Shown here one piece after another: positions 3,843-10,075 of a DNA stretch of 10,105 nucleotides (within the stretch, counting starts at the first letter, position 1; the number at the start of each line of letters is the position of its first letter). This stretch comes from Pseudomonadota bacterium (GTDB lineage: Bacteria > Pseudomonadota > Alphaproteobacteria > Rhizobiales > Hyphomicrobiaceae). The translations under genes and the position numbers were made by a program. The stretch is from assembly GCA_003242645.1 (NCBI GenBank), contig QGVC01000107.1, forward strand, positions 1-10,105, given 5' to 3'. Below the pieces are notes generated by a model that saw nothing but the letters and a program-made list of their open reading frames with translations, made no database searches and was not told where the DNA came from.

Positions 3843-3867
3843 AACGCATGAGCATAGGGCCGGTTCC
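3843..3867 (-). promoter_or_regulatory. EcfG/SigT-type general stress promoter of the DUF2267 gene
   Basis: On the minus strand GGAAC (3863-3867), a 16-bp spacer, and CGTT (3843-3846) match the published alphaproteobacterial EcfG consensus GGAAC-N16/17-CGTT exactly. It points at the DUF2267 gene and would give a leader of about 70 nt. The -35 element is itself embedded in a perfect dyad, GGCCG-GTTC-CGGCC (3858-3871). An exact match with either spacer is expected about 0.15 times by chance on both strands of a window this size, and this one lies in an intergenic gap in the right orientation. Confidence 0.7.
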
Positions 3868-6155: not shown

Positions 6156-6181
6156 GGAACCGAGTGCCGCAGAGGCGAGTT
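6156..6181 (+). promoter_or_regulatory. EcfG-like promoter of the PQQ-dependent sugar dehydrogenase gene
   Basis: GGAAC (6156-6160), a 17-bp spacer, and AGTT (6178-6181) match GGAAC-N16/17-NGTT with one deviation in the least conserved -10 base. The inferred start near 6188-6190 gives a leader of about 35 nt before the ATG at 6224. Orientation and distance are right for the dehydrogenase gene, which suggests expression under general stress or stationary phase. Confidence 0.45.
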
Positions 6182-9020: not shown

Positions 9021-9860
9021 CTAATCCCACTCAGGCGCGACGGACATCGTCACAATGCGCCCGTCCGGCCGCGCAAGACTGGACAGGCGGCGCATATCGT
9101 CCTCGCTAAGCTCGAAATCGAAAATGGCGAAGTTCTCGGCGATCCGCTTCGGGTTGGCGGATTTCGGAATGGGGATCACGCCCGGCTGTTGTATGTGCCA
9201 GCGCAAGACGACCTGAGCCGGCGTGCGCCCGACCCGCCGGGCGATGTCTTGCACCACAGGATCCTGCAACACGCCGCCAACGGAGCCGCGACCGAGGGGG
9301 CAATAGGACGCGAAGGCCACACCGTGCCGTCTGCAGGCGGCGAGCACCTTCGACTGGTCAAGGTACGGGTGATACTCGCACTGGTTCATGACGATCGGCT
9401 CGCTCGAGAGGGCGACCGCCTCCTCAAGCATGCGGGAGGGGAAGTTCGAAACCCCGATGTGCCGGGTAAGCCCGCGCCGCTTCGCGTCGTTGAGGGCGCG
9501 GATCGACTCCGAAAGCGGCACAGCCTTGTTCGGCCAATGGATGAGCAGCAGATCGACCTGATCGATGCCGAGCTGCCGGAGGCTCCTCTCCGCCGAGCGT
9601 TGAAGCGGGCCGTCTGAGATGTCCTCCCACCACACCTTGGTGGTGATCCATACGTCCTCCCGGGGCACTCCGCTGACCCGCAGGCCTTCACCGACCTCAG
9701 CCTCGTTCTGGTACATCGCAGCCGTGTCGATATGGCGGTAGCCGCATGCGAGCGCCGCCGCCACCCCGCGGACGCATTCTTCCCCCTTGAGGGGCCAGGT
9801 GCCGTAGCCAATCACAGGAATCGATGCGCCGCCGGCCGCGACGCGCGAGCTCGGAGTCAT
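9021..9860 (-). CDS. aldo/keto reductase (2,5-diketo-D-gluconate reductase-like)
   Basis: This is a 279 aa NAD(P)H-dependent aldo/keto reductase of the AKR5/DkgA-DkgB type, a cytoplasmic TIM-barrel enzyme that reduces ketones and aldehydes such as diketogluconate, methylglyoxal or other reactive carbonyls. The full catalytic tetrad is visible: Asp45 in HIDTAAMY, Tyr50, Lys75 in TTKVW, His108 in LLLIHWP. Further signatures are GVSNF (136-140), NQCEYHPYL (159-167) and the coenzyme-binding IPKSANPKRIAEN (231-243). The ATG at 9858-9860 has GGGAG (9868-9872) 7 nt upstream. A candidate sigma-70 promoter lies at 9900-9928. The sRNA terminator at 9974-10003 isolates it from transcription entering from the right. 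The MFS gene lies 170 bp downstream on the same strand, so cotranscription is possible but not evident. The 8851-9020 gap shows only a weak 5-bp stem (8982-8998). Confidence 0.93.
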   Translation of the reverse strand: MTPSSRVAAGGASIPVIGYGTWPLKGEECVRGVAAALACGYRHIDTAAMYQNEAEVGEGLRVSGVPREDVWITTKVWWEDISDGPLQRSAERSLRQLGIDQVDLLLIHWPNKAVPLSESIRALNDAKRRGLTRHIGVSNFPSRMLEEAVALSSEPIVMNQCEYHPYLDQSKVLAACRRHGVAFASYCPLGRGSVGGVLQDPVVQDIARRVGRTPAQVVLRWHIQQPGVIPIPKSANPKRIAENFAIFDFELSEDDMRRLSSLARPDGRIVTMSVAPEWD

Positions 9861-9899: not shown

Positions 9900-9928
9900 A
9901 TCGTTTCGAAGCCGACCGGCAAAGTCAA
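9900..9928 (-). promoter_or_regulatory. candidate sigma-70 promoter of the aldo/keto reductase gene
   Basis: On the minus strand TTGACT (9923-9928) and AACGAT (9900-9905) are 17 bp apart, placing the start near 9893 with a 33-nt leader. The -35 matches five of six consensus bases, the -10 only three. It lies between the sRNA terminator and the reductase start codon, where a promoter is needed. Confidence 0.35.
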
Positions 9929-9973: not shown

Positions 9974-10003
9974 AAAAAAAGGGCACCCGTTGATGGGTGC
10001 CCT
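9974..10003 (-). terminator. strong intrinsic terminator of the sRNA locus
   Basis: AGGGCACCC and GGGTGCCCT form a perfect 9-bp stem (9980-9988 with 9995-10003) and a 6-nt loop. On the minus strand it runs straight into seven T (9980-9974). This is a textbook rho-independent terminator and works for transcription coming from the right. Confidence 0.93.
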
Positions 10004-10044
10004 CAGATAAGACCTGCGCGTGGGGGGGGGACGGCGCAGGTCAC
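9974..10044 (-). ncRNA. candidate small RNA with a C9 loop, GsrN-like, general-stress regulated
   Basis: A short non-coding transcript is inferred from promoter, fold and terminator. The 5' hairpin pairs 10035-10042 with 10011-10018 (8 bp) and 10031-10033 with 10019-10021 (3 bp), with one bulged base (10034) and a loop of nine C (10022-10030 on the minus strand). A 7-nt linker (10004-10010) leads into the intrinsic terminator. An EcfG-like promoter at 10051-10075 would start the RNA near 10042-10045, giving about 70 nt that begins almost directly with the first stem. Minus-strand stops in all three frames (10085-10087, 10078-10080, 10068-10070) show that no protein gene reads through. The design, a GSR-driven RNA with an exposed C-rich 5' loop, resembles Caulobacter GsrN, which binds G-rich mRNA leaders such as that of katG. 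Homology is inferred from architecture, not from an alignment. Confidence 0.6.
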
Positions 10045-10050
10045 ACTCTA

Positions 10051-10075
10051 AACCCGCAAGATCCAATTCAGTTCC
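10051..10075 (-). promoter_or_regulatory. EcfG-like general stress promoter of the sRNA
   Basis: On the minus strand GGAAC (10071-10075), a 16-bp spacer, and GGTT (10051-10054) match the EcfG consensus GGAAC-N16/17-CGTT except for the first -10 base. The expected start, 6-9 nt downstream, falls at the base of the C9-loop hairpin, so promoter and RNA structure fit together. Confidence 0.55.

Follow-up and report, generated by a model that had tools for sequence, protein, structure and literature searches.

A candidate EcfG-controlled small RNA with a poly-C loop beside an aldo/keto reductase gene, and a possible set of such RNAs in Hyphomicrobiaceae-like bacteria

Results

The window analysed here, a stretch of 10,105 nucleotides, holds at its right end a compact unit in which an EcfG-type promoter is followed by a hairpin with a poly-C loop and an intrinsic terminator (Table 1). 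On the minus strand, 7 nt and then a T separate the GGTT box from the hairpin, and a short linker leads on to the terminator. The initial annotation had described a promoter, a C9-loop hairpin, a linker and a T7 terminator in this order on this strand, and its coordinates and description hold on inspection of sequence and fold. The 73-nt RNA folds with −37.4 kcal/mol, versus −18.8 ± 2.8 for shuffled sequences (z −6.7), with none of 200 shuffles being as good. First-order Markov simulation of the window (300 runs) gives an expectation of 0.12 GGAAC-N16-SGTT sites and 0.09 runs of nine C per window, and the combination of the site with six C within 38 nt occurred in none of the 300 runs. The window itself contains two GGAAC-N16-SGTT sites, starting at 10075 and 3867, both on the minus strand. 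Given the conservation in two relatives described below, the predicted sRNA unit is beyond chance. An Rfam search of the window returned no family at gathering score.

Table 1. Features of the window discussed in the text, with the basis of each assignment
Feature	Position	Strand	Basis
−35 box GGAAC of the EcfG-type promoter	10071..10075	minus	Sequence; GGAAC and TGA invariant in window, L001 and L088
−10 box GGTT, N16 from the −35 box	10051..10054	minus	Sequence; CGTT in both relatives
5′ hairpin, 11 bp (9+2) with one bulged C	10011..10042	minus	Fold and three-sequence comparison
Loop of nine C, proposed pairing site	10022..10030	minus	C9 in window, C10 in L001 (G001), C9 in L088 (G479); homopolymer lengths may include sequencing error
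Intrinsic terminator, stem GGGCACCC/GGGTGCCC, T7; loop varies among relatives	9974..10003	minus	Sequence, fold
TTGACT-N17-AACGAT, likely a separate promoter for the aldo/keto reductase gene	9900..9928	minus	Consensus resemblance only
Aldo/keto reductase (AKR) gene, downstream of the sRNA gene	9021..9860	minus	Pfam PF00248
Second EcfG-type site, GGAAC-N16-CGTT, upstream of a DUF2267 gene	3843..3867	minus	Kept in G001 before the same gene (L326:8036, minus)

With the adjacent aldo/keto reductase as protein query we obtained 80 loci, one of which (L001, from the Hyphomicrobiaceae MAG RSA4, genome G001) carries the sRNA gene as judged by BLAST and motif, and searching 103 genomes from the family to which G001 belongs added a second relative, locus L088 in genome G479. 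Common to all three loci are GGAAC-TGA, a spacer, (C/G)GTT, exactly 7 bases and then TGACCTGCGCCGT-poly(C)-ACGCGC(A/G)GGTC. Only 2 of 13 positions between TGA and the −10 box and none of the seven after it are invariant; the 5′ hairpin hardly varies, and the terminators share an identical stem but differ in their loops. All 11 pairs of the 5′ hairpin are kept in the three sequences, and all 19 modelled pairs form in each of them. As the sole change is a single one-sided U-A to U-G, this represents conservation rather than covariation. The alignment across relatives proposed in the initial annotation hence confirms the stems and the C-rich loop in three of three sequences, but covariation is almost nil, since just three sequences of this RNA (type I below) were found. 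The same annotation had regarded a loss of stems and promoter in close relatives as speaking against the RNA; promoter boxes, hairpin and terminator stem are all kept in G001 and G479.

BLAST with the sRNA against 397 genomes of the order gave four with a match at E ≤ 0.01, one of them clear (G001), with the three further matches (E 0.006-0.009) spanning the terminator part of the query only. Among the 103 family genomes, 61 had some match at E ≤ 1 and the gene is present in G001 and G479; no orthologue was found in 21 other matched family loci that were examined, of which L097 and L098 have another C-loop RNA. Model R1, representing the window type, reported 13 of the 103 genomes at E ≤ 0.1, and by eye only G001 and G479 carry type I. 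Rfam at gathering score, run on 20 loci, detected a tRNA in L145 only.

The reductase is 76-78% identical in L001 and L088, and follows the sRNA on the same strand and in the same order in all three loci. In G001 the window's gene order is kept from DctM to the reductase and the sRNA, and in L088 the order of reductase and sRNA. Of the promoter-like sequence preceding the reductase gene, TTGAC and the spacing are retained in the three loci, with AACGAT as the −10 element in the window and L001 and GACCAT in L088. Considering that promoter, hairpin and terminator are conserved as a unit, and that the reductase gene has a separate promoter-like sequence, the unit looks like a gene of its own. 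The nearest long ORF upstream of the sRNA runs divergently from it in L001 and in the same direction in L088, and an origin as the 3′ UTR of an upstream gene is therefore unlikely, as the initial annotation had also argued, here judged from ORF orientation in ORF lists only. Its proposal of an sRNA of about 70 nt under general-stress control is well founded as a prediction, with a conserved promoter, C-loop hairpin and terminator separate from the downstream gene. In G479, 55 nt separate the sRNA promoter from the end of an upstream ORF (L088:524-1414) that resembles, by eye, a tandem universal-stress protein.

Turning to the promoter, sites of the EcfG regulon take the form GGAAC-N16/17-CGTT, and the EcfG1 motif published for Rhizobium etli is GGAAC-N16-CGTT (available text of PMC3892343); the window deviates from it in the first base of the −10 box, with CGTT present in both relatives. 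Genes for PhyR, NepR and an EcfG-like sigma factor lie side by side in G001, NepR is present in 78 of the 103 family genomes including G479, and we infer an EcfG in the window's own genome. GGAAC-N16-CGTT occurs eight times in 400 kb of G001, versus a mean of about four at other spacings, with N15 reaching seven; the bare motif is consequently not specific, N16 being only mildly above other spacings. The conservation of three promoters is a better argument for the predicted EcfG control than the bare motif. The site upstream of the DUF2267 gene is likely a second general-stress promoter in the window. In addition, an EcfG-like site with an imperfect −10 box is found at 6156 (plus strand) near the start of a sorbosone-dehydrogenase-like gene, and in G001 an EcfG-like site with N17-CGTT (L326:10290, plus strand) stands near the start of a sorbosone-dehydrogenase-like gene, making a third stress promoter at this gene possible.

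We then considered further C-loop RNA genes in the two relatives, using as pattern an EcfG-like site followed by five C within 35 nt. Seven distinct places were recovered in G001 and seven in G479 (backward matches four and two, respectively), five of the former and three of the latter being sRNA-like by eye, type I included. Four types can be distinguished, without evident common sequence. Type I is the RNA of the window, L001 and L088. Type II (L131, L132) forms a longer hairpin whose loop holds ten C, type III (L134 and L136 in G001, L124 in G479) reads CC(A/G)CTGGTCATGCCCCC...GATCGGTGG and also has six C in the terminator loop, and type IV (L135, in G001 only) reads CCTGTGC...CCCCCC...GCACAGG. 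Of the other loci scored with the type I model, type IV gave the best match (30.4 bits), and a distant kinship of types I and IV is therefore possible. For type II, five sequences gave a two-sided change in one pair of 31, with little power to detect covariation. The data suggest that the general stress response here uses a set of C-loop RNAs, as opposed to the single one known from Caulobacter.

Several other arrangements were encountered. Immediately after the type II sRNA gene at L319:9047-9233 of G001 come a further EcfG-like site and an ATG, both on its strand. In L161, L162, L180 and L252, an EcfG-like site precedes two or three consecutive poly-C-loop hairpins, terminator loop included, with three successive C-loop hairpins per RNA by eye in L161, L162 and L180. 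Another C-loop RNA type (GCCGTCCC...), lacking the EcfG site, is found in L097, L098, L177, L179, L183, L188, L114 and L185; it has one or two C-runs in the loop and a terminator with a C-rich loop. CTTG motifs upstream of several of its members suggest the use of another sigma factor, perhaps RpoH. Finally, L262 from a Sphingomonas kyeonggiensis genome and L257, L259 and L260 from genomes labelled Pseudolabrys, Rhizobiales and Xanthobacteraceae display an EcfG-like site, a C-rich hairpin and a terminator-like hairpin, folded by eye.

To what extent motif counts speak for a set of such genes in the family depends on the control. An EcfG-like site with C6 was found at 49 distinct places (counted by hand, with overlapping rows merged) in 35 of the 103 family genomes, and the backward control gave 14 matches in 11 genomes. 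With the wrong spacing, N20, distinct places numbered 13, not counting the type I gene of G001, which matched from a second GTT, and there were 18 backward matches. A G6 control however returned 37 distinct places in 31 of the 103 genomes (backward control 20 matches), some of which resemble repeated coding sequence; because this is nearly as high as the 49 places for C6, raw motif counts are weak evidence for the set. Across the order, the C6 motif was present in 94 of 397 genomes versus 68 of 397 with backward matches (controls counted by hand), just slightly above control, and the abundance thus seems to be a feature of the Hyphomicrobiaceae-like family. For named genomes the figures were 23 of 41 versus 6 of 41 with backward matches. 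A C6 match occurred in 32 of the 78 genomes with NepR versus 3 of the 25 without (p 0.006), where genomes may be incomplete.

A structure test, which asks for the C-run inside a hairpin loop and a terminator after it, with thresholds set after the sequences were seen, was applied to the 35 of the 49 family places whose locus had been fetched. The outside comparison consisted of 30 loci from a longer list, none of whose genomes is in the family list, of which 29 were tested, L283 being left out. The test was passed by 18 of 35 family places, versus none of the 29 same-motif places outside the family but within the same order. Among C-runs at large, it was passed by 2 of 61 motif-less runs in 414 kb of G001, by 2 of 133 runs in other AKR loci and by 9 of 83 off-target runs in other family loci, several of which had been fetched for their likeness to C-loop RNAs. 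Fisher values are 1e-12 against 2/133, 1e-6 against 0/29 and 5e-6 against 9/83, and overstate the case because homologous places are not independent. Some cases that are clear by eye fail the automatic test, on the loop (L131), on the terminator (L146, L148, L150, L153) or on both (L158). The structure test separates the family's candidate C-loop places better than raw counts.

Discussion

GsrN of Caulobacter is EcfG-dependent, and through its C-rich loop it base-pairs with the 5′ end of katG mRNA, which is rich in G, and increases KatG; a position near the GSR locus is described as usual in Caulobacteraceae, though not in C. crescentus (both from the available text of PMC5869019). The search pattern of an EcfG-like site followed by a C-run, applied to the 41 named genomes, retrieves one recurring C-loop RNA in six of seven genomes labelled Caulobacter, whose loop ACGCCCCCCCGACU contains the complements of the GsrN target sites GGGGGCGU and UCGGGGG given in the published text; we took it as GsrN because promoter, loop and complementarity to these sites fit, rather than by accession. 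The initial annotation had left two options, a GsrN orthologue or an independent RNA of the same design. The window RNA shares with GsrN the EcfG-type promoter, a C-rich loop near the 5′ end and an intrinsic terminator downstream of the EcfG site, yet that it is the GsrN orthologue of its bacterium is very unlikely. Model R2, made from the six Caulobacter RNAs in the manner of the covariance search the annotation had suggested, gave no window match up to E = 10 while scoring its own member at 143 bits, and model R1 gave no hit at the position of the Caulobacter RNAs. Moreover, the gene adjoins the aldo/keto reductase, and in G001 nepR lies on contig C22 and the type I gene on C12. Both relatives also carry another EcfG-driven C-loop RNA, type II, which lies 9.4 kb from nepR in G001 (contig C22) and 52 kb from it in G479 (contig C88, with type I on C22), and which has homologues 2-3 kb from nepR in G435, G332, G439, G440 and G445. 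The positional counterpart of GsrN, if any, is thus type II and not the window RNA, and the independent RNA is the better of the two readings. C-loop RNAs not clearly assignable to type II were located 0.3-3 kb from nepR in G400, G441, G443 and G054, and in total nine of the 49 places are near nepR. Membership of the alphaproteobacterial ar14 (NfeR1) family is similarly improbable to a high degree. While ar14 (RF02344) is the best Rfam match of a 156-base stretch, with hairpin and terminator aligned (24.3 bits, E = 0.0047), the gathering score is 58.8, and ar14 matches at E ≤ 1 appear in 45 of the 103 family genomes with none over the cut-off. The NfeR1 type, as far as its published descriptions go, comprises three hairpins each with CCUCCUCCC and a sigma-70 promoter, whereas the window has one C-loop hairpin, no CCUCC and an EcfG-type promoter.

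Two further readings concern what the hairpins do. They could act in cis, as a stress-inducible leader or attenuator for the reductase, and not as an RNA working in trans, congruent with the unit being on the same strand as the reductase gene and some 110-125 nt before it at each of the three loci; the unit however closes with a terminator of seven or eight T, and the TTGAC-N17 promoter-like sequence comes after this terminator, so that we regard a leader as unlikely. Alternatively, the partner of the C loop might not be an mRNA but a protein that binds C, such as Rho, which the loop would titrate. Rho prefers C-rich RNA and the run is pure C, but a loop of nine Cs is short for loading Rho. 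GsrN, PmaR and NfeR1, the C-loop RNAs studied by experiment in the published descriptions at hand, act on mRNAs, and titration is to our mind extremely improbable.

Aggregated, these findings make it probable that the window carries a stand-alone sRNA gene, transcribed by EcfG into an RNA of about 70 nt whose C loop would pair with mRNA G-runs, and which would be one of a family set. Upon stress, PhyR would free EcfG from NepR, and EcfG RNA polymerase would transcribe leftward from near 10044 to yield an RNA of about 70 nt with a 5′ hairpin exposing nine C, then a terminator with a U tail. G-runs in the leaders of mRNAs, in many cases at the ribosome-binding site, may pair with the C loop, and such pairing may alter translation or stability, as shown for GsrN on katG. 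PmaR and NfeR1 are likewise described as acting through C-rich loops (PMC6234868; PMC10746234, PMC7143759, available text). A pure C loop fits G-runs better than GGAGG. Among 260 ORFs of G001, the 25 nt before the start contain 14 runs of five or more G and a single C-run; this allows such targets, but the excess does not discriminate, since Shine-Dalgarno sequences alone would give the same.

On a broader level, we tentatively propose, with confidence that is close to balanced but falls slightly on the side of doubt, that EcfG in the Hyphomicrobiaceae-like group drives a battery of sRNAs (five in one genome) with little shared sequence, which have converged on one G-tract code and serve as additive, interchangeable silencers or stabilisers, a distributed arm replacing one GsrN. 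The plan they share consists of an EcfG promoter, one to three poly-C-loop hairpins and a terminator, often with C in the terminator loop. In the cited papers, to the extent of their available text, GsrN is the one post-transcriptional arm of the general stress response in Alphaproteobacteria that has been studied well. Should a genome have several C-loop RNAs of different sequence under EcfG, one could test for redundancy, dosage effects and target codes held in common, and deleting a single gene would be expected to have little effect. Hairpins as simple as these, with a loop of pure C, also offer a minimal form of the design. The open-access literature, within its available text, yielded no report of a genome with multiple EcfG-driven C-loop RNAs that differ in sequence.

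Several known systems are comparable, all taken from the available text of the respective papers. EcfG-controlled ncRNAs exist in R. etli, where ReC64 similarly follows GGAAC-N16-CGTT and has a mapped 5′ end; it differs in being located in the ecfG1-phyR region, and the comparison is by description only (PMC3892343). PmaR of Agrobacterium, also compared by description only, resembles the window RNA in acting on mRNAs through a C-rich loop that caps a long stem, and it is induced in stationary phase (PMC6234868). With ar14/NfeR1 the window RNA shares hairpins with C-rich loops and variable stems, and ar14 has several copies per genome in S. meliloti, as may be the case for the set proposed here; unlike it, ar14/NfeR1 has CCUCCUCCC anti-Shine-Dalgarno loops in three hairpins and a sigma-70 promoter under LsrB and NtrC (PMC10746234, PMC7143759). 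With GsrN it has in common the EcfG-type promoter, the C-rich 5′ loop, the intrinsic terminator and the general stress response. GsrN is however about 100 nt long, with a branched 5′ structure in a computed fold, and is processed to a 5′ isoform, whereas the window RNA is predicted to be about 70 nt, a simple hairpin with a pure C9 loop and no similarity by model, and its copy in G001 lies away from nepR. The authors of the GsrN study proposed EcfG-driven sRNAs with C-rich loops near the GSR locus across Alphaproteobacteria (PMC5869019). On sequence grounds, and with ReC64 and PmaR compared by description, the predicted window RNA is a new family, absent from Rfam 15 at gathering score, of this known EcfG C-loop kind.
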